A program made the position numbers and the translations under genes. The notes under the pieces are model-generated. The model searched no databases. It saw nothing but the letters and a program-made list of their open reading frames with translations, and was not told the origin of the DNA. From an uncultured Acidobacteriota bacterium (GTDB lineage Bacteria; Acidobacteriota; Terriglobia; Terriglobales; Acidobacteriaceae), in NCBI GenBank assembly GCA_903873705.1, contig CAIQPK010000042.1, positions 1 to 61,896 on the forward strand: DNA of 61,896 nt, read 5' to 3'. Below are positions 13,145-48,354 of the stretch, piece after piece. Positions within the stretch are counted from its first letter, which is position 1; every line of letters starts with the position of its first letter.

Positions 13145-13225
13145 AGTGAATAGTGAATAGTGAATAAAGCAAAAGCAGGAGCAACGGCAAAAGCAGATTC
13201 CTCCGCTGCGCTGCGGAATGACAAT
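13145..13225. repeat. Compound repeat upstream of beta-lactamase gene (families G + A-like + B)
   Basis: A mosaic of three modules: AGTGAATAGTGAATAGTGAA (family G, 13145-13170), a short hexamer run AAAGCAAAAGCAGGAGCAAC, and a family-B hairpin (13190-13225) with AGCAGATTCC and GCGGAATGACAA ends. It is open in frame with the beta-lactamase gene and would mislead start prediction. Confidence 0.85.
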
Positions 13226-19689: not shown

Positions 19690-19721
19690 AGCAGGTTCCT
19701 CGCTTTAGCTCGGAATGACAA
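19690..19721 (+). repeat. Family B hairpin repeat (array-linked)
   Basis: GCAGGTTCC ... CGGAATGACA with stem TTCC/GGAA. It is immediately followed by palindrome J and the long hexamer array, the same module order as at 33250. Confidence 0.85.
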
Positions 19722-20220: not shown

Positions 20221-20380
20221 GCAGGTCCTTCGACTCCCCCCTTCGCTTTGCTCGGGGGTTCGCTCAGGATGACGGCGCTTTTTGGGTTGGAAGAGAACAA
20301 TTGCGAGGGCGAAGGCGAAAGTAACAACAAACGCAGATTCCCTGCGGGAATGACAATCGATACCCTGCGGGAATGACAAC
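20221..20380. repeat. Three B-type hairpin repeats in tandem
   Basis: First a long form (20221-20273): GCAGGTCCTTCGACT ... CGCTCAGGATGACGG, with an inner CCCCC/GGGGG stem. Then two minimal forms at 20331-20380 with CCCTGCGGG cores and GAATGACAA tails. The tail ATGAC is shared by all. Confidence 0.8.
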
Positions 20381-21840: not shown

Positions 21841-21874
21841 AGCGGATTCCTTCGCTGTGCTGCGGAATGACAAT
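21841..21874 (+). repeat. Family B hairpin repeat
   Basis: AGCGGATTCCTTCGCTGTGC then TGCGGAATGACAA, located between the small membrane gene and the iscS terminator. Stem ATTCC/GGAAT. Confidence 0.88.
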
Positions 21875-33405: not shown

Positions 33406-33465
33406 ATGCGGGGATCTCTCCACTGCGCATCGCAAAAGCGCGATGCTTCGGTCGAGATGACGGTT
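33406..33465 (+). repeat. C-type hairpin repeat with inner GCGCATCGC stem
   Basis: ATGCGGGGATCTCTCCACTG then GCGCATCGCAAAAGCGCGAT, then TCGAGATGACGG. Outer stem ATCTC/GAGAT; the centre carries an extra CATCGC/GCGATG hairpin absent from copies at 41211 and 45226. Confidence 0.88.
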
Positions 33466-37778: not shown

Positions 37779-37860
37779 GGGCCAGGGTTTAGGGTTCAGG
37801 GTTCAGAAAGCGCGTGGTTGTGGCTTTCTGGACCCCGAGCCCTGAGCCCTGGACCCTTTC
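37754..37860. repeat. Family D repeats, inverted pair between membrane gene and valS
   Basis: Left part: GTTCAGGGCCCAGGGCTTAG with further CAGGG units; right part: GACCCCGAGCCCTGAGCCCT, the opposite orientation. Between them is the stem CAGAAAGC/GCTTTCTG. The element reaches both stop codons of the convergent genes and could terminate both. Confidence 0.88.
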
Positions 37861-40800
37861 TACTCTGAGGGTAAGGCTGCCAGCGCAGCTTCGGCTTTTT
37901 GTTTGAGGGCGGTGGTTTCGGCGTACTGCTTTTTCAGGCCTTCGATGATGTGGGCGGGGGCGCGGGAGACGAAGCCTTCGTTGTTGAGCTGCTTTTCGGC
38001 GGCTTCGATGCCCTTGTTGAGTTTGACGAGGTCCTTGGTGAGGCGCTCGCGTTCGGCGGGGACGTCGATCTGGCGTGCATATACGATCGCGACATCAAAC
38101 GTCGCGGTACTACGCGTGTTGATGCCGGAGGGAGCGGCGGAGACGATCTCGACGGAGGCGACGCGGGCCTGTTTGGCCAGCATGTCGGCGTTGGCCTGGG
38201 CGAGCTGCGTGATGTTGGCGGCGGCGAAGAGCTGGATGGGAGCGGCTTCTTTTTCCGGCACGGCGAGGTCTTTGCGCAGGGAGCGGACGGTGATGATGAG
38301 CTCCTGCAGGGTGTTGATGGCGGCTACGCTGGCGGTGTCGGCGGGGTAGTCGGCTGGCTGCGGGTAGCGGGTGAGGGCGATGGATTTGGCGGGCGCGGGG
38401 GTGTCAATCTGCGCGTGGAGCGCGTGCCAGAGCTCTTCAGTGATGAAGGGCATGAAGGGGGAGAGAAGGCGGAGCGCGGCCTCGAAGGTGGTGACGAGGG
38501 CGTTTAGGGTAAGGGCGGTGGTTTCTGTATAGGGCTTGTAGTTGCCGGCTTCATCGGGGAAGAAGTCGAGGCGGAGCTTGACGAGTTCGAGGTACCAGTC
38601 GCAGAACTCGCCCCAGAAGAACTGGTAGACGGCGCTGGCGGCCTCGTCGAAGCGGTAGTCGGTGAGGGCGTGGGCTACTTCGGCGGAGACGGTGCTGAGG
38701 CGGGCGAGGATCCAGCGGGTTTCGAGGGGGGTGGAGGTCGGGAGTGGGGCTACATTTGTGGCCGCCCCGGCTTCGCCGGTACCCACCCTAACCGACGATG
38801 ATGCCGTCGGTGAGGATGGGGCACCCGGGGTGGTGGCCGGGTTGAGGGTGGGTGTGTAGCCGGCTTCCTTGCCGCGCTCGATGTTCATGGCGATGAAGCG
38901 GGCGGCGTTCCAGATCTTGTTGGCGAAGGCGCGGTTGCCTTCGGTGCGGGCTTCGGAGAAGGCGATGTCGGTGCCGGGCGAGGCTTGGGAGGCGAGGGTG
39001 AAACGGACGGCGTCGGTGCCGTATTTTTCGACTATGCCGATGGGGTCGATGACGTTGCCCTTGGTCTTGGACATCTTCTGGCGGTCGGCGTCGCGGACCA
39101 GCGCGTGGATGTAGACGTTGCGGAAAGGGACGGCGTCGGCGAGGGTGCGCGGGGTGCCGTCGGGCATGGGGACGTCCAGCATGAAGTGGGTGCCGAGCAT
39201 GATCATGCGGGCGACCCAGAAGAAGAGGATGTCGAAGCCGGTGACGAGGAGCTGGGTGGGGTAGAAGGCGGCTAAATCAGGGGTCAGGGTCCAGGGCCCA
39301 GGGGCCAGGGGGCCGGACTTTTGCGCGTTGTCGCTATTGCTTCCTGAGCCCTGGACCCTGGGCCCTGAACCCTCATCACCACCCCAGCCGAAGACGGTGA
39401 AGGGGAGGAGGCCGGAGGAGAACCAGGTGTCGAGGACGTCGGTTTCCTGCTTGATGTCGGTGATGCCGCAGCCGGAGCAGGCGGCGGGGGTTTCGCGGGA
39501 GACGGTGATCTTCTGGCAGGCGTTGCAGTGCCAGGCGGGGATGCGGTGGCCCCACCAGAGCTGGCGGGAGATGCACCAGTCGTGGATGTTGTTCATCCAC
39601 TCGAAGTAGGTTTTGGAGTACATCTCGGGGGTGAACTTGATGTGTCCTGCCGGATTCGAAGGGCTATAAACGGCGGCGATGGCGTTGGCGGCGATGGAGT
39701 TTTGTGCGGGGCCGTCTGGAGCAGGGGCAGCCCCGGCTTCGCCGGTACCCACCCTAACCGACGATGAACCTGTCGGTGAGGATGGGGCACCCGGGCCTTT
39801 TTGCGGGGATTTGTTGACGGCGAGGAACCACTGCATGGAGAGGCGGGGCTCGATGATGGAGCCGGTGCGCTGGGAGATGGGAAGGGTGAGGGTGTGGTCC
39901 TTGATGGCGACGAGGTGGCCTGAGGCTTCGAGGTCCGCGACAATGCGCTTACGGGCTTCGAAGCGATCGAGGCCGTGGTAGGGGGAGCCTTCGAGCTTGA
40001 TGCGAGCCTGCTCGTCCATGATGGCGGGCGAGGGCAGGTTGTGGCGCTGGCCGATGGCGAAGTCGTTGGGGTCGTGCGCGGGGGTGACCTTGACGGCGCC
40101 GGTGCCGAACTCGGGGTTGGCCCAGTCGTCGGCGATGACGGGGATGGTGCGATCTGGTTTTCCAGCCGCGGCGCTCAGGGGCAGCGTGAGCTGCTTGCCG
40201 ATGAAGGCGGTGTAGCGTTCGTCGGTGGGGTTTACGGCTACGGCGGTGTCGCCGAGCATGGTTTCGGGGCGCGTGGTGGCGATGACGAGCGAGCCGGTAC
40301 CGTCGGCGAGGTCGTAGCGCACGTGGTACAGGTGCCCGGCGCGCTCTTCGCTCTCGACTTCGAGGTCGGAGACGGCGGTGCCGAGGACGGGGTCCCAGTT
40401 GACGATGTAGGCGCCGCGATAGATGAGGCCCTGCTCGTAGAGGCGGACGAAGGCTTCCTTGACGGCGCGGCTGAGGCGGTCGTCCATGGTGAAGTACTCG
40501 CGGGACCAGTCGACGGAGGCGCCGAGGCGGCGCATCTGCTCGGTGATGGCTCCGCCGTACTGCTCTTTCCACTGCCAGACGCGCTCGGTGAAGGCTTCGC
40601 GGGTGAAGTCGGTGCGGGACTTGCCTTCGGCGGCGAGCTGGCGCTCGACCATCATCTGGGTGGCGATGCCGGCGTGGTCGGTGCCGGGAATCCAGACGGC
40701 GGTGTCGCCGATCATGCGGTGCCAGCGGGTGAGGATGTCCATCTCGGTCTGGTTGAGCATGTGGCCCATGTGCAGGCGGCCGGTGACGTTGGGCGGCGGG

Positions 40801-40937
40801 AGCAGCTGGACGAAGGGATTGGGTGCGTGGCCGCTGGCAGGGGTGGGGACGTCGAAGAGCTTTTCGGTGACCCAGTAGGTGGCCCATTTTTCTTCGATGA
40901 GGGCGGGGTCGTAGGACTTGGGGAGTTCGTTACTCAT
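37860..40937 (-). CDS. valS: Valyl-tRNA synthetase with three repeat-coded insertions
   Basis: Class I aminoacyl-tRNA synthetase, 1025 aa. HIGH-type motif PPPNVTGRLHMGHML lies near residue 50 and KMSKTKGNVIDP near 622. Editing domain, anticodon domain (ILARLSTVSAEVAHALTDYR) and C-terminal coiled coil (ERERLTKDLVKLNKGIEAAE) are present. It exceeds most bacterial ValRS (about 880-950) because of three in-frame low-complexity inserts: residues about 382-403 (SSVRVGTGEAGAAPAP), 521-553 (GSGPRVQGSGS to GPWTLTPD) and 703-725 (SSVRVGTGEAGAATN). These correspond to family E twice and an inverted family D pair. All lie between catalytic motifs. Confidence 0.96.
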   Translation of the reverse strand: MSNELPKSYDPALIEEKWATYWVTEKLFDVPTPASGHAPNPFVQLLPPPNVTGRLHMGHMLNQTEMDILTRWHRMIGDTAVWIPGTDHAGIATQMMVERQLAAEGKSRTDFTREAFTERVWQWKEQYGGAITEQMRRLGASVDWSREYFTMDDRLSRAVKEAFVRLYEQGLIYRGAYIVNWDPVLGTAVSDLEVESEERAGHLYHVRYDLADGTGSLVIATTRPETMLGDTAVAVNPTDERYTAFIGKQLTLPLSAAAGKPDRTIPVIADDWANPEFGTGAVKVTPAHDPNDFAIGQRHNLPSPAIMDEQARIKLEGSPYHGLDRFEARKRIVADLEASGHLVAIKDHTLTLPISQRTGSIIEPRLSMQWFLAVNKSPQKGPGAPSSPTGSSSVRVGTGEAGAAPAPDGPAQNSIAANAIAAVYSPSNPAGHIKFTPEMYSKTYFEWMNNIHDWCISRQLWWGHRIPAWHCNACQKITVSRETPAACSGCGITDIKQETDVLDTWFSSGLLPFTVFGWGGDEGSGPRVQGSGSNSDNAQKSGPLAPGPWTLTPDLAAFYPTQLLVTGFDILFFWVARMIMLGTHFMLDVPMPDGTPRTLADAVPFRNVYIHALVRDADRQKMSKTKGNVIDPIGIVEKYGTDAVRFTLASQASPGTDIAFSEARTEGNRAFANKIWNAARFIAMNIERGKEAGYTPTLNPATTPGAPSSPTASSSVRVGTGEAGAATNVAPLPTSTPLETRWILARLSTVSAEVAHALTDYRFDEAASAVYQFFWGEFCDWYLELVKLRLDFFPDEAGNYKPYTETTALTLNALVTTFEAALRLLSPFMPFITEELWHALHAQIDTPAPAKSIALTRYPQPADYPADTASVAAINTLQELIITVRSLRKDLAVPEKEAAPIQLFAAANITQLAQANADMLAKQARVASVEIVSAAPSGINTRSTATFDVAIVYARQIDVPAERERLTKDLVKLNKGIEAAEKQLNNEGFVSRAPAHIIEGLKKQYAETTALKQKAEAALAALPSE
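38763..38829. repeat. Family E repeat inside valS (copy 1)
   Basis: GCCCCGGCTTCGCCGGTACC then CACCCTAACCGACGATG, ending GTCGGTGAGGATGGGGCACC. Two internal stems: CCGGC/GCCGG and ACCGAC/GTCGGT. In frame in valS. Confidence 0.92.
39278..39376. repeat. Inverted family D pair inside valS
   Basis: Left GGGTCAGGGTCCAGGGCCCA, right CCTGAGCCCTGGACCCTGGG. The two are opposite in orientation around TTTTGCGCGTTGTCGCTATT. In frame in valS. Confidence 0.92.
39728..39793. repeat. Family E repeat inside valS (copy 2)
   Basis: Nearly identical to the copy at 38763: GCCCCGGCTTCGCCGGTACC, then AACCGACGATGAACCTGTCG and GGATGGGGCACCC. Same reading frame and orientation. Confidence 0.92.
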
Positions 40938-41210: not shown

Positions 41211-41258
41211 ATGCGGGGATCTCTCCACTGCGCTGCGCTTCGGTCGAGATGACGGTTG
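41211..41258 (+). repeat. C-type hairpin repeat
   Basis: ATGCGGGGATCTCTCCACTG then CGCTGCGCTTCGGTCGAGAT and GACGG. Stem ATCTC/GAGAT. Same core TGCGCTGCG as family B. Confidence 0.9.
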
Positions 41259-43917: not shown

Positions 43918-44754
43918 CTACTCTTCTACTTCGGGCGGCAGTTCGTAACGACGCCATGCTGCCCCCGGTATCGAGCGTTCGGCATACCAGCCCAAGGGTA
44001 GATCGTGGAGTTCCTCGATCGACGAGTCGTCGTCGACCGGATGATGCAAGCATGAGACAACCGGTCCACCGTGGTCACTCATGGTGTCACCGAGAAACTG
44101 CCAGGCACCGTCCCTGTCGTGAGTGACGAAGACAACCGGCTCTACTTTGTCAAAAACCCTTTGCGAAAGGAATGCATTCGTATGGCGACTCATCGGGAAC
44201 TTCCAAGTTGTTGTGGGGACGTCATCCTCAAGGAAGTCGTGCTCAGTTGGGCCCTCCGGCTCGCCAGGAGTAAACATGGGTTGGCGGAAGTAATCGTTGA
44301 AGCCTGATTCCCATTGGAAGCGACCTTCGAGATCGGGATAGATGAGTTGGAGAGCAGGGACTTCGGCTCCCTTGTAGTACCAGTTGCTTCGCAGCATTGT
44401 TCGCTCATACCAAATACGTCCAACAGGACGAAAAAACACTTCGACATCTCCACCTAGCAAATCGCGGTGGCGACCTTTTGATAGATCAACGCCCTCCTTC
44501 ATGAGATCAACCGCGTAGCCGATCGCAACATGCGCCGTTTTTAACGGAAGGACCGCGGTGATGATTTCCGGGAAGCTGAATATGTCAAATAGGCCTGTGG
44601 TGTAGGCAAAGGAGCGAGACGGTGTGGCGCTTGAGACGAGCATCGCTTGCCAGCCGAACTCTTCGATGTCATCGAGAGTGTCGGCAAAGCTTTTCTTTAG
44701 CTCCTGTGCACGCCAATAGGCGAGGCGCTCACTGCGGTAGGGCGAAGCGCTCAT
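43918..44754 (-). CDS. DUF4262-family protein
   Basis: A 278-aa cytosolic protein. The family block is visible: DDIEEFGWQAMLVSSATPSR followed by SFAYTTGLFDIFSFPEIITAV, then LMKEGVDLSKGRHRDLLG. The middle part (FFRPVGRIWYERTMLRSNWY, LQLIYPDLEGRFQWESGFND) agrees with this group. The C-terminal 100 residues add a DUF-like extension with FVTHDRDGAWQFLGDT and SCLHHP. Codon use is less GC-rich than in rpe and uvrC. The ATG overlaps the uvrC-like stop by four bases. Function unknown. Confidence 0.82.
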   Translation of the reverse strand: MSASPYRSERLAYWRAQELKKSFADTLDDIEEFGWQAMLVSSATPSRSFAYTTGLFDIFSFPEIITAVLPLKTAHVAIGYAVDLMKEGVDLSKGRHRDLLGGDVEVFFRPVGRIWYERTMLRSNWYYKGAEVPALQLIYPDLEGRFQWESGFNDYFRQPMFTPGEPEGPTEHDFLEDDVPTTTWKFPMSRHTNAFLSQRVFDKVEPVVFVTHDRDGAWQFLGDTMSDHGGPVVSCLHHPVDDDSSIEELHDLPLGWYAERSIPGAAWRRYELPPEVEE

Positions 44755-46412
44755 TTGGTTTCTCCGATAATCTCTGCGGGAGTGCTTGTCTTGCGGTTAC
44801 GTGACCGTTTGGGAAGGACCGGCACTTCGCGTTCTACGCCTTCGCGGCCTTCGTGGATGATTTTGGTTCTTAGGGTTTTGGCGGCTTCGCGGTCTACGGG
44901 TGGGGCGGCGGTGGGTGGGCCGAGGGCTACGCGGGCGGCGGCGTTGAGGATGCGGCGGATGGGCCAGACGTCTTTCGTACCGGCTGGGTCGGGGTTGGGG
45001 AGGAGGACTTCGCCGCTGCGTTGCTTTTCGGGGCGGTAGTACCAGCGGCGGAAGAGGGCGAGGGTGTCGCAGCGTTCGGCTATGTCGGGTGGGGGTTGGT
45101 GGGTGGTTTGGGTGGTGAGGTGGGCGAGGACGGCGCGGGCGCGGTCTTCGGGGGTGGCGGAGGGCGAGGGTCCAGGGTTCAGGGCCCAGGGTTCAGAAGG
45201 CGCGGCTTGCGTGCCAGGCGGAGAAAATGCGGGGATCTCTCCACTGCGCTGCGCTTCGGTCGAGATGACGGCTGTGGATGGCATGTGGGTTGAGGTAACG
45301 GCGGTCGATGGTGTTTCGCCCGAAGTGGCGGAGGCTGAGTTGGGTGCTGGGGGTGTGGCGGGTTCGTCGAGGGGGACGGGGGCGAGCATGAGGGGTTGGG
45401 CGAAGAGGGAGCTGCCTACGGCGGTTTGCTCGCGGACGGCGCGGACGCCGAGGGTGGAGAGCGGCTCGGGGCCGACGAGGCGGCCGTTTTCGAGGAGGAA
45501 GACGGCGGCTTCTTCGAGCTTGAGCGTGCGCTCGGGGTGGTGGGGATCGGGGCGGGGGGCGGCTTCCTGGAGGATGACGGCGCTGAGGGCTGCTACGGGG
45601 CGGACGAGTTCGTCGGCGAGGGCGGCGGCGGCTTTGACGCGCTCCCATTGCTTGTGGAGGGCGGCGGCCTGCTCGAAGTCCATGGCTTCGCTGGCGGCTT
45701 CGCGCTGGGCGGCTACTTCGGTGAGGAGGGATTCGCCGCGGGTGGCGAAGAAGGCGTGGACGCGGGCGGCTTCGGCGGCGTAGTCGGCGGGGGTGCAGGC
45801 GGCTTTGCAGGGCTCGATGCACTTCTTCATTTCGCCGTAGGCGCAGCCGGGGTGGTCGGGGTGGACCTGGAGGTCTTCATGGCAGCGGCGGAGCTTGAAG
45901 AGGTCGAGCACGGCGTCGCCGTAGCGCTCGGCGGCGGCGCGGGAGGGGAAGGGGCCGAAGCTTTCGGGGAGAGATCGCGGGGAGAGTTTGTTGGTGGTGT
46001 AGACGCGGGGGTGTTCGTGCTGGAGGGTGATGCGGAGGAAGAAGGGAGCGTGCAGGCGGAGGCGCTTGCGGGCCTGCTCGGGGCCGAAGGCGGCGCGGGT
46101 TGCGCGGTAGAGCAGGAGGGATGACTCGAAGTCGGAGCCGGTGCGGGTGTAGTCGATGAAGCGGACTTTGCTGCGGAGGTTGAGGCGCCGGGAGAGTACG
46201 GGGCGGCCTTGCTCGTCGACGGCTTCAGGTGGAGCGAGGAGGCGGCGGAGACGGCGGCGGAGGTCGGCGGTGCGGGTGAGGTAGGGCTCGGAATTTTCGG
46301 CGGAACCGCGGAGGGCGAAGATGCCGGGAGCGGCGGGGATCTGGCGCAGGAGGGCTTCGGCGTCGGCGGCCTGGAAGACGATGCGGGATTGGAACTCGAA
46401 GGCCGCGCTCAC
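44751..46412 (-). CDS. UvrC-like protein with degenerate GIY-YIG and no RNase H domain
   Basis: A 553-aa relative of the excinuclease subunit UvrC. N-terminal GIY-YIG-like segment PGIFALRGSAENSEPYLTRT then DLRRRLRRLL: GIY is GIF and YIG is YLT, while the Arg is kept. The Cys cluster (CHEDLQVHPDHPGCAYGEMK, CIEPCKAAC) and UVR motif (EAMDFEQAAALHKQWERVK) are intact. No C-terminal endonuclease V/RNase H or HhH region is seen. Residues 380-415 are coded by C-type and D repeats in tandem (VISTEAQRSGEIPAF, EPWALNPGPS). A repair role is inferred only; nuclease activity is doubtful. Confidence 0.8.
   Translation of the reverse strand: MSAAFEFQSRIVFQAADAEALLRQIPAAPGIFALRGSAENSEPYLTRTADLRRRLRRLLAPPEAVDEQGRPVLSRRLNLRSKVRFIDYTRTGSDFESSLLLYRATRAAFGPEQARKRLRLHAPFFLRITLQHEHPRVYTTNKLSPRSLPESFGPFPSRAAAERYGDAVLDLFKLRRCHEDLQVHPDHPGCAYGEMKKCIEPCKAACTPADYAAEAARVHAFFATRGESLLTEVAAQREAASEAMDFEQAAALHKQWERVKAAAALADELVRPVAALSAVILQEAAPRPDPHHPERTLKLEEAAVFLLENGRLVGPEPLSTLGVRAVREQTAVGSSLFAQPLMLAPVPLDEPATPPAPNSASATSGETPSTAVTSTHMPSTAVISTEAQRSGEIPAFSPPGTQAAPSEPWALNPGPSPSATPEDRARAVLAHLTTQTTHQPPPDIAERCDTLALFRRWYYRPEKQRSGEVLLPNPDPAGTKDVWPIRRILNAAARVALGPPTAAPPVDREAAKTLRTKIIHEGREGVEREVPVLPKRSRNRKTSTPAEIIGETK
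45168..45272. repeat. Family D plus C-type hairpin inside uvrC-like gene
   Basis: D part 45168-45198 (TCCAGGGTTCAGGGCCCAGG), C part 45226-45272 (GCGGGGATCTCTCCACTGCG then TTCGGTCGAGATGACGG). Both in frame on the minus strand. Confidence 0.9.
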
Positions 46413-46466
46413 AGGATGAATTTTAGACGGCGGCGACGGTTCTGTTTGGGACTTGATCTTTTGAAG

Positions 46467-46501
46467 TTGTCATTCCGCAGCGTAGCGAAGGAATCTGCTT
46501 G
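46467..46501 (-). repeat. Family B hairpin, left end of GIY-YIG cassette
   Basis: TTGTCATTCCGCAGCGTAGC then GAAGGAATCTGCTTG, in reverse orientation. Stem CATTCC/GGAAT(C). Confidence 0.92.
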
Positions 46502-46528
46502 TTGTTCGGTGCGGCTACAATCTTCGCC

Positions 46529-46822
46529 ATGCCGCGTCGTGAGCTTCAATACTGCGTCTACATTTTGTCGAGCAAGTCGCGGACGCTGTATATCGGCGTC
46601 ACGAATAACCTTGTGGCGCGCGTGTTGAAGCACCGTGACGGCGAGCCTGGGTCGTTCACAGCTCGCTACAAGGTCTATCGGCTGGTTTACTTTGAGCGGT
46701 TTCAGTATGTGGGGAATGCGATCGCGCGGGAGAAGGAGTTGAAGGATTGGAACCGGGCGCGGAAGGTGGCGTTGATTGAGGCTGGGAATCCGCTTTGGGA
46801 CGATCTTGCCGCTGATTGGTAA
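46529..46822 (+). CDS. GIY-YIG endonuclease, UPF0213/YhbQ-like
   Basis: A 97-aa single-domain GIY-YIG nuclease. Catalytic positions are complete: Y11 (CVYIL), Y21 (LYIGVTNNL), R31 (VARVLKH), E68 (AREKELKDW) and N87 (GNPLW). ELQYCVYILSSKSRTLYIGV is the family opening and the end NPLWDDLAADW is typical. ATG 46529 is used; upstream residues are coded by the left repeat. The gene fills almost the whole space between two inverted family-B repeats. Unlike the neighbouring uvrC-like protein, its active site looks functional. Substrate is unknown; hairpin or repeat DNA is a plausible target. Confidence 0.93.
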   Translation: MPRRELQYCVYILSSKSRTLYIGVTNNLVARVLKHRDGEPGSFTARYKVYRLVYFERFQYVGNAIAREKELKDWNRARKVALIEAGNPLWDDLAADW

Positions 46823-46841
46823 TGGGCGGGGGGCGGGCGAC

Positions 46842-46876
46842 AAGCAGATTCCTTCGCTGCGCTGCGGAATGACAAG
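46842..46876 (+). repeat. Family B hairpin, right end of GIY-YIG cassette
   Basis: CAAGCAGATTCCTTCGCTGC then GCTGCGGAATGACAA. Mirror of the left end. Confidence 0.92.
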
Positions 46877-46923
46877 TTTGAAGGGTGGTTAGTTGACCCT
46901 GGAGTGAATGGGGCGAACGCTCC

Positions 46924-48354
46924 CTAGCTTCCGCCGGCAACGGTCATGCCTTCGATGCGTACCGTAGGGACGGCGCCGCTGCTGAGGAACTCGAGGTCGC
47001 TGCCGATGGCGGATACGTTGCGGAACATGTCTTTCAGGTTGCCGGCTATGGTGATCTGCTCTACCGGGTAGGCTAGTTCGCCGTTTTCGATCCAGAGACC
47101 GCTGGCACCTTGCGAGTAGTCGCCCGTGACGAGGTTGACGCCGAAGCCCATCGTCTGCAGGACGTAGAGGCCGTTCGGGACGTCCGCGATGATCTGATCG
47201 CAGGTTTGAGTGCCGGGTTCGAGATAGTAATTGCCGCCGCCGATGCCCGGAGCGCCGGCGAGGCCGCGGGAGGCCTTGCCTGTGGAGGGCATGTTGAGCT
47301 TTCGGCCGGTGTAGGTGTTGAGCATCAGGTTTTTGAGGACGCCTTTTTCGATGACGACGGTGCGGCGGGTGGGCAGGCCGTCGCCGTCGAAGGGCGAGGT
47401 GCCGAAGCCGCCTACCTTGATGGTTTCGCCGTTGGGCAGGGTGTGGTCGAAGACCATGGTGCCGTCGTCGACCATGGTGATGTTTTCGCCGGCTACCTGC
47501 TCGCCGAGTTTGCCGGCAAACATGCTGGCGTTGCGGTAGATGCTGTCGCCGTCGGCGGCGGAGATGAGGTTGCCCATGAGGCCGCGGGCGATTTCGGGAG
47601 CGAAGACGACGGGGCACTGCTGGGTGGGAACGCGGCGGGCGCCAAGACGGCGGAGGGCGCGTTCGGCGGCTTTGCGGCCAACTTCTTCGGGTGAGGCGAG
47701 GAGCTGGGCGGTGCGAGCGCTGGAGTACCAGTAGTCGCGCTGCATGGCGCCGGAGGCGTCCTGCGCAATGGGGGTGACGGAGAAGCCGACGTAGCTGCGG
47801 CGGTAGTTGCCGGAGAAGCCGCGGGAGTTGACCATGACGCGGCGGGCGCTGGAGGCGTCGAAGTGGGCGCCGGAGGAGTTCTGGATGCGAGCGTCGGCGG
47901 CCATGGCGGCGGCTTCGCAGCGGCGGGCGATCTCGATGCGCTCGGCGGCGGGGATGGCGTCGATGTCGTCGAAGTAGAGGTGCTGTGTGGCGGGGTCGTT
48001 CTGGCCGAAGGCTGCACGGTCGGGCAGGCCGGCGAAGGGGTCGGCTCCTGTGACCTTGGCGAGCTCGACGGCGCCGTCGATGAGGCGGGCGATGCCGTCG
48101 GGCGAGAGGTCGGAGGTGGAGGTGCTGGCGGTGCGCTGGCCGCCCTCGCTGGCGAAGAAGACGCGCAGGCCGAGTGCGCCGGAGCCGGATTCGGTGAGCT
48201 GCTCGACCTGGCCGAGGCGGACGGTGACGGCGAACTCTTCGCTTTCGAAGCCGACGGCTTCGGCATCGGTGGCGCCGGCTTTTAGGGCGCTGGCGACGAC
48301 TTCTTCAGCGAGCAGGCTGAGAGGATGTTGCAACTTGGTGGAGATACCCGTCAT
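46924..48354 (-). CDS. pmbA: TldD/PmbA-family protein PmbA (TldE)
   Basis: A 476-aa subunit without the metal motif that pairs with TldD (at 50.7 kb) as a protease complex. The N-terminal DUF1669-like part (VVASALKAGATDAEAVGFES; VRLGQVEQLTESGSGALGLR) and C-terminal beta-barrel blocks (GKLGEQVAGENITMVDDG; TRRTVVIEKGVLKNLMLNTY; GANLVTGD-like GVNLVTGDYSQGASGLWIEN) are typical. ATG 48354 is used; TTG 48360 is two codons upstream. TldD/E trims peptides such as microcin B17 precursor and CcdA in E. coli; no RiPP precursor was found nearby. Confidence 0.94.
   Translation of the reverse strand: MTGISTKLQHPLSLLAEEVVASALKAGATDAEAVGFESEEFAVTVRLGQVEQLTESGSGALGLRVFFASEGGQRTASTSTSDLSPDGIARLIDGAVELAKVTGADPFAGLPDRAAFGQNDPATQHLYFDDIDAIPAAERIEIARRCEAAAMAADARIQNSSGAHFDASSARRVMVNSRGFSGNYRRSYVGFSVTPIAQDASGAMQRDYWYSSARTAQLLASPEEVGRKAAERALRRLGARRVPTQQCPVVFAPEIARGLMGNLISAADGDSIYRNASMFAGKLGEQVAGENITMVDDGTMVFDHTLPNGETIKVGGFGTSPFDGDGLPTRRTVVIEKGVLKNLMLNTYTGRKLNMPSTGKASRGLAGAPGIGGGNYYLEPGTQTCDQIIADVPNGLYVLQTMGFGVNLVTGDYSQGASGLWIENGELAYPVEQITIAGNLKDMFRNVSAIGSDLEFLSSGAVPTVRIEGMTVAGGS

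Follow-up and report, generated by a model that had tools for sequence, protein, structure and literature searches.

What moves the CGTC-type REPs is the open question with which the 2013 survey of these repeats closes (PMC3733652). A short nuclease gene bracketed by its cognate repeat would be a direct and testable answer. We found such an arrangement in the window, by which we mean the whole stretch of 61,896 nucleotides analysed here, from an uncultured Acidobacteriota bacterium. The cassette has the following parts.

46468..46874, + strand: whole unit of 407 bp from outer tag to outer tag (TGTC ... GACA), an inverted repeat; the tag boundary is set by analogy with loci L145/L146
46469..46502, + strand: left CGTC-type REP, with a GTC tag, an ATTCC/GGAAT stem, an inner part and the tail CTGCTT; tag outward
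46529..46822, + strand: gene for a 97-aa single-domain GIY-YIG nuclease, stop codon included (PF01541, E=1e-13; invariant residues present; PDB 1zg2, E=1.2e-9 by profile search)
46840..46873, - strand: right REP, which is the left REP inverted with 1 mismatch in 34; tag outward

The sequence-only reading of this DNA had described a GIY-YIG gene bracketed by oppositely oriented repeats, with a single mismatch between the inverted ends and nothing else inside. Our analysis confirmed all three points. The arms (46464-46502 and 46840-46878) are 39 nt each and 95% complementary, their 34-nt core differs at one base, and only the 97-aa gene lies between them. The arm pair is the sole inverted repeat of 12 nt or more reported within 46400-46950. 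Unlike an insertion sequence, the unit contains no known transposase; the GIY-YIG gene is alone inside it. As single-stranded DNA, the window arms gave a weak fold (-2.3 kcal/mol) that was no better than those of shuffled sequences. The heptamer TTTGAAG is present as a direct repeat immediately outside the unit (46460-46466 and 46877-46883).

Solitary copies of the repeat had also been named at five places in the window. Two of them are of the same family as the cassette arms, but at 19690, 20331 and 33250 the hairpins, though related, have different stems. The dispersed repeats of the window include these.

13196..13222, - strand: solitary copy of the REP family of the cassette arms, by pattern match
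21845..21871, - strand: solitary copy of the same family, by pattern match
20336..20377, - strand: related CGTC-type hairpin with the stem ATTCCCG, followed by a second, imperfect hairpin
33413-33461, 41218-41253 and 45234-45269, all - strand: second CGTC-type REP family (GTCATCTCGACCGAAG...GGAGAGATC)

The repeat pattern has 54 matches in the 4.18-Mb genome to which the window belongs, both cassette arms included, and the reversed control has 0. Of these, 44 are exact, 3 have one mismatch and 7 have two; in the last group, at least one looks like a chance match. Among these 54 matches, 46469(+)/46847(-) is the sole outward-tag pair within 10 kb. The stand-alone GIY-YIG gene is a single copy in this genome, and the one other PF01541 match lies in a 705-aa open frame that is UvrC-like by size. 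The copy of the second family at 45234 is intragenic: it lies within the UvrC-like ORF 44751-46412, where the translation has STEAQRSGEIPAF. Repeats of the same type as this second family flank GIY-YIG genes of other genomes.

Residues Y11, Y21, G23, R31, E68 and N87 of the nuclease are invariant in 16 aligned sequences, and we take Y11, Y21, R31, E68 and N87 to be the usual GIY-YIG catalytic Tyr, Tyr, Arg, Glu and Asn. The dN/dS ratio was 0.03-0.32 in 10 of the 11 pairs tried, and the eleventh was saturated; by these ratios, the gene is under purifying selection. No NCBIfam model matched the 97-aa protein at 1e-3. Similarity of both sequence and modelled fold places it in the UPF0213 family (BH0048, EF2693). 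With the AlphaFold model (mean pLDDT 80) as query, UPF0213 BH0048 (1zg2) was the sole Foldseek match under 0.001 (E=1e-4). Next came Slx1 chains at E values of 0.008-0.075 and probabilities of 0.99-1.00, with a second UPF0213 protein among them, and thus the resemblance to Slx1 is the less close. Slx1 is a eukaryotic repair nuclease that has a partner protein, and it processes branched DNA according to the title of a structure entry. The modelled fold suggests that the substrate may be hairpins or forks. Our literature search, which covered few subscription journals and no preprints, found no paper on UPF0213.

The bracketing recurs in other genomes. The gene is present in 26 of the 61 genomes around the window (its own included), in up to five copies each. 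We took all 57 matches, of which 55 had usable flanks. Inverted flanking repeats, defined by an alignment score of at least 15 within 150 bp on each side, were found at 30 of the 55 genes. The same criterion picked out 0 of 135 ORFs that neighbour the gene in these loci and 2 of 1134 intervals placed at random. In a wide scan, we used one genome per species, chose loci by protein similarity only and took the best 80 of 580 confirmed stretches. The score was at least 15 in 51 of the 78 usable loci and at least 20 in 36. By their record titles, the positives among these best 80 span 13 phylum-level groups, namely Acidobacteriota, Alphaproteobacteria, Deltaproteobacteria, Bacteroidota, Chloroflexota, Verrucomicrobiota, Planctomycetota, Nitrospirota, Gemmatimonadota, Actinobacteria, Bacillota, Fibrobacterota and Patescibacteria, and single assignments may be wrong because many of the records are metagenome bins. 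The two sets share a few loci (L011/L144 are the same DNA, as are L062/L148). An inverted flank at the threshold was absent from 25 of the 55 genes near the window and from 27 of the 78 loci chosen by protein. Degenerate TTGCTTTTGCTGTTG-like tracts extend the inverted similarity beyond the tags in L006, L007, L008 and L027.

Plasmids carry the arrangement as well. The gene matched 33 plasmid records, and eight of the nine taken for variety of organism scored at least 15 with 200-bp flanks; the one below 15 was the Rhizobium tumorigenes plasmid locus. As a control, we examined 11 other GIY-YIG genes. Three were usable, with scores of 9.0-9.5, and the other eight reach the end of their locus.

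We then counted a mechanical motif, consisting of GTC, a stem of 5 nt whose first base is A, 4 to about 65 nt of spacer, the complement of the stem and C. With the tag outward, it was present upstream of 69 of 133 genes, downstream of 62 and on both sides of 53, two duplicate loci being entered twice. The control intervals gave 40 of 2700 upstream, 46 of 2700 downstream and 0 of 2700 on both sides. The inward-tag motif was rarer (14/133 and 19/133) but still above the control (46/2700 and 55/2700). The prediction that the gene is flanked by the repeat far more often than other genes are is thus borne out by the neighbouring ORFs, the wide scan and the two-sided motif counts.

Outward tags also prevail among close pairs of repeats. 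Among the places listed there were 23 outward and 3 inward close pairs (22 and 2 on 12 genomes, with G024 and G016 added by eye), and gene-less outward doublets are common. Three of the 23 outward pairs among these places have a spacer of more than 150 nt, and two of the three enclose a GIY-YIG gene (G013, G220). The third, in G024 (L306), has a 206-nt spacer with no GIY-YIG trace and no clear gene. This spacer holds an inverted tract around GACGCAAAGAGCGCGAAGGACGC.

CGTC REPs are defined by a CGTC tag, often TGTC or CCTC (Di Nocera 2013, PMC3733652). In the excerpted text of the survey, their stem is 8-9 bp and begins with AT, the loop is 4-5 nt, the unpaired tail is mostly CCA, and HH doublets with the tags outside prevail. 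The same excerpts equate Neisseria dRS3 with CGTC-1 and count A. lipoferum, S. meliloti and Neisseria among the hosts. We found GIY-YIG gene units flanked by CGTC-type repeats in each of these hosts (A. lipoferum AZO_p3, S. meliloti and N. gonorrhoeae). The A. lipoferum unit has a doublet on each side, and the N. gonorrhoeae gene lies amid clustered copies; therefore, the nearest tags there face inward. When 300 kb of AZO_p3 were searched strictly, nine copies were found, three of which are around its single GIY-YIG gene, where a fourth, imperfect copy also lies. The remaining six are three plain doublets with spacers of 35-38 bp. Close pairs in these 300 kb were outward in 4 cases and inward in 0.

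The tag is TGTC in the window, CGTC in Azospirillum, Rhizobium and Neisseria, and CCTC in the S. meliloti loci. The repeats share with the CGTC superfamily the tag, a stem starting with AT and the outside-tag doublets. The AZO_p3 copies have stems of at least 7 bp beginning with AT and short loops, whereas the window copies have a 5-bp outer stem and a longer interior. The window tail is CTG and not CCA, which is found in several alphaproteobacterial copies. Because the tail and interior length differ and the repeats fold weakly on their own, we call the window repeats CGTC-type and not members of the superfamily. Further, the excerpts of the survey name five host phyla, Acidobacteria not among them, and state that, few fortuitous cases apart, CGTC repeats have no associated transposase genes (PMC3733652). 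No title or opening of an abstract within our literature search, which left out preprints and many journals, joined GIY-YIG with REP or CGTC repeats. Some of the papers found contain both words; in the excerpts of one of these, PMC9465073, the two genes are no more than entries of one table.

The sequence of the arms is related to that of the protein. In the 74 of 165 units with motifs readable on both sides, the likeness of left and right arms had a mean of 0.597, compared with 0.194 when permuted (maximum 0.268 in 10000), and this figure is lowered by chance motifs, for instance on the right of both L145 and L146. The more alike two proteins are, the more alike are their arms (Mantel r=0.467, with 0 of 2000 permutations as high), a match that is confounded in part by host kinship, and only 4 comparisons were within one genome. 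We also counted compensating changes in 71 units, for which the stem was defined in a single arm and the aligned places were then read in the other. Among stem pairs changed on both sides, 16 still pair and 1 does not. Six further pairs differ on one side, and one of these has become G-U. With the roles of the arms exchanged, the counts were 17 compensated, 0 unpaired double and 4 one-sided changes. With 16 compensated and 7 uncompensated changes, we therefore conclude that pairing is kept.

The number of repeats rises with the presence of the gene. The gene occurs in 111 of the 299 genomes of the class. The median number of copies of one fixed pattern was 15 with the gene and 2 without it (p=8.5e-21), a difference in which host kinship is a partial confounder. 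Of the four families tested, f1 (p=0.02) and f7 (p=9e-5) gave the same result, and the test was weak or null in f5 (p=0.08) and f8 (p=0.69). Within the genus, there were 11.5 copies in 16 genomes with the gene, including G027 on the basis of a 35-residue fragment, and 2 copies in 12 genomes without it (p=9e-4). The sequence-only reading had asked whether solitary copies are numerous only in genomes that have the gene. The medians agree with this, but 12 of the 55 genomes with at least 20 copies show no match to the gene. Conversely, 18 of the 146 genomes with three or fewer copies bear the gene. The genome G261, a possible case of loss of the mover, has 114 pattern copies and no GIY-YIG match. 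G014, from the genus, has 48 copies, and its GIY-YIG match is solely in a 667-aa frame.

Does the cassette move? Near-identical units lie in unrelated flanks, and their identity stops at or close to the outer tags, as expected of the mobile unit that had been proposed. L145 and L146, from two Acidobacteriota bins, share 483 bp at 92.5% in otherwise unrelated surroundings; on the left, the identity extends about 14 bases beyond the TGTC tag, and on the right it extends 2 bases beyond the tag. The genome G022 has two copies, L080 and L082, which are 86% identical over 640 bp and unrelated outside. Their identity starts close to the left CGTC tag and stops within the right hairpin, because L080, which lies 265 bp from a contig end, has lost the outer right tag. 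No target-site duplication, a feature of many families of insertion sequences, was evident in 65 units: the longest shared word had a mean of 3.12, compared with 3.15 in mismatched pairs. The 7-bp TTTGAAG repeat beside the window unit was rejected as a target duplication, there being no excess across these 65 units.

Empty sites, the other sign of movement that had been called for, were found in comparisons between species. The A. lipoferum unit sits between sufB and sufC, and these genes adjoin without gene or repeat in all four relatives examined (A. ramasamyi, A. oryzae, B510 and A. brasilense). The window unit sits between UvrC-like and TldD genes. This gene order is kept, in the stretch examined, in 13 of 22 TldD-bearing genus mates, and the nuclease gene is at that site in 0 of the 13. 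The gap is 38-100 nt in 9 of the 13, one of which (G010) has a degenerate repeat remnant. It is 256 nt in G002 and contains a repeat pair that lacks the gene; in G022, a repeat is accompanied by other inserted DNA, and G027 and G015 have other inserts. Among Sphingobium plasmids, the unit is present in TomMM7A, TYG46 and MM15 and absent in TYG72 and TYG65. In TYG64 and TYG74 (L235 and L236, compared with L223), a solo palindrome with a CGTC tag at each end occupies the unit's place. This is as expected if the middle of the unit was deleted between short repeats, and the tree does not settle the order of events. The flanks of the Rhizobium CIAT894 unit gave no clean empty site, their best matches being an IS4 copy. 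Overall, the sequence comparisons support a unit that is present or absent as a block, with hairpins that go with the protein. We are highly confident that the unit is mobile and that it is linked with CGTC-type repeats.

We think it probable that the unit is a REP element of a new kind. Its nuclease would process the hairpins and thereby spread both itself and gene-less copies, although we infer the catalysis. That the nuclease is the mover of the unit is, in our judgment, likely. The proposal of the sequence-only reading, an autonomous cassette with solitary copies as its non-autonomous offspring, is partly supported. The cassette would then be a mobile REPIN-like pair of CGTC-type hairpins, with tags outward, tails inward and the nuclease gene in the spacer. 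Once its own hairpin is extruded, as might happen on the lagging strand, the nuclease may recognise it and may cut near the CGTC/TGTC tag. To our knowledge, GIY-YIG enzymes are hydrolytic, and we know of no strand-transfer step. Insertion would therefore need host factors, and host repair or replication may join or copy the unit at another place, leaving no target duplication. Doublets that lack the gene (REPINs), and single REPs whose hairpin matches, would be either moved in trans or remnants.

We lean slightly toward a broader proposal, that the GIY-YIG/CGTC-REP units are a separate and very widespread class of transposable element. Their sole encoded enzyme would be a structure-selective hydrolytic nuclease, not a transposase; the CGTC REP superfamily, Neisseria dRS3 included, would have its missing source in these units; and each nuclease lineage would be matched to its own hairpin. 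If so, prokaryotic transposition would gain an enzyme class, and a common class of bacterial repeats its missing mobility enzyme. The units would also explain much of the repeat DNA between genes and some of that within them, and a small hairpin-directed nuclease would be at hand whose specificity could perhaps be read from its own flanks.

An unlikely alternative is homing, in which CGTC repeats or REPIN spacers that are already in place are cut by the nuclease, its gene is copied in, and something else moves the repeats. Free-standing GIY-YIG homing endonucleases are likewise small mobile nuclease genes. The TYG64/TYG74 palindrome, which occupies the very position of the gene unit, would suit such a history, as would the gene-less repeat pair and repeat at the window's own UvrC-TldD site (G002, G022) and the abundance of gene-less outward doublets. 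However, the empty site is free of repeats in the four Azospirillum relatives, and the UvrC-TldD gap is at most 100 nt in nine genus mates with a repeat remnant only in G010. Therefore, the repeats came with the gene at those sites. Each end of the unit is a complete REP and not half of one. A homing gene would also sit within a conserved target, at the point where its product cuts. Here, the units have hairpin ends and lie at many differing sites with no fixed target gene; the Azospirillum empty sites are repeat-free, and the Sphingobium, G002 and G022 sites are ambiguous.

We consider it very unlikely that a RAYT or another host transposase moves the CGTC repeats with the nuclease gene as cargo. 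RAYT-family (PF01797) matches were found in all 10 genomes searched, at 41 places, and repeats do persist without the nuclease gene. We inspected the flanks of 30 of the 41. A GTCAT(C/T)C word was near 6 of these 30 genes, on one side; in L114, two such words lie on the same flank, beyond its own ends. However, 22 of the 30 have inverted ends (score at least 15) that are mostly GC-rich and of other sequence, and the GTCAT hairpin was a paired end in 0 of the 30. RAYT was thus rejected as the mover, since these 30 genes share no ends with the units. The arm sequence tracks the nuclease, and two of the three long-spacer outward pairs among the places listed enclose its gene, the third having no clear gene. 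The lack of ties to transposase genes in the survey's excerpts, few fortuitous cases apart, also argues against a passenger role (PMC3733652). The RAYT-family genes (L088-L117) have GC-rich inverted ends of their own, with several sequences within one genome.

The analogy with REP/RAYT elements (REPtrons, REPINs; TnpA_REP) therefore holds for the architecture but not for the enzyme. In both, a nuclease gene is flanked by inverted tagged hairpins, which are also dispersed as singles and outward doublets. A REPtron combines GTAG repeats with a Y1 HUH transposase gene; the tag here is GTC/CGTC and not GTAG, and the enzyme is a GIY-YIG protein (PF01541) and not an HUH tyrosine transposase.

That an old resident nuclease gene merely gathered REPs as transcription terminators or insulators, as its purifying selection and the gene copies that keep their place in two genomes (L007/L008, 93.5% over 3.3 kb) might suggest, is hardly credible given the patchy presence of the gene (26 of 61 genomes, up to 5 copies), the empty sites and, unless both pairs are assembly artefacts, the near-identical units in unrelated flanks.

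Two further observations concern neighbouring genes. In the window, the ORF 37860-40937 (- strand), which is presumably valyl-tRNA-synthetase-like, contains a segment like GAPSSPTGSSSVRVGTGEAGAA twice, in frame. On plasmid p1 of Planktothrix agardhii (L224), a GIY-YIG unit has an MmeI-type restriction gene on one side and the DISARM gene drmA on the other.
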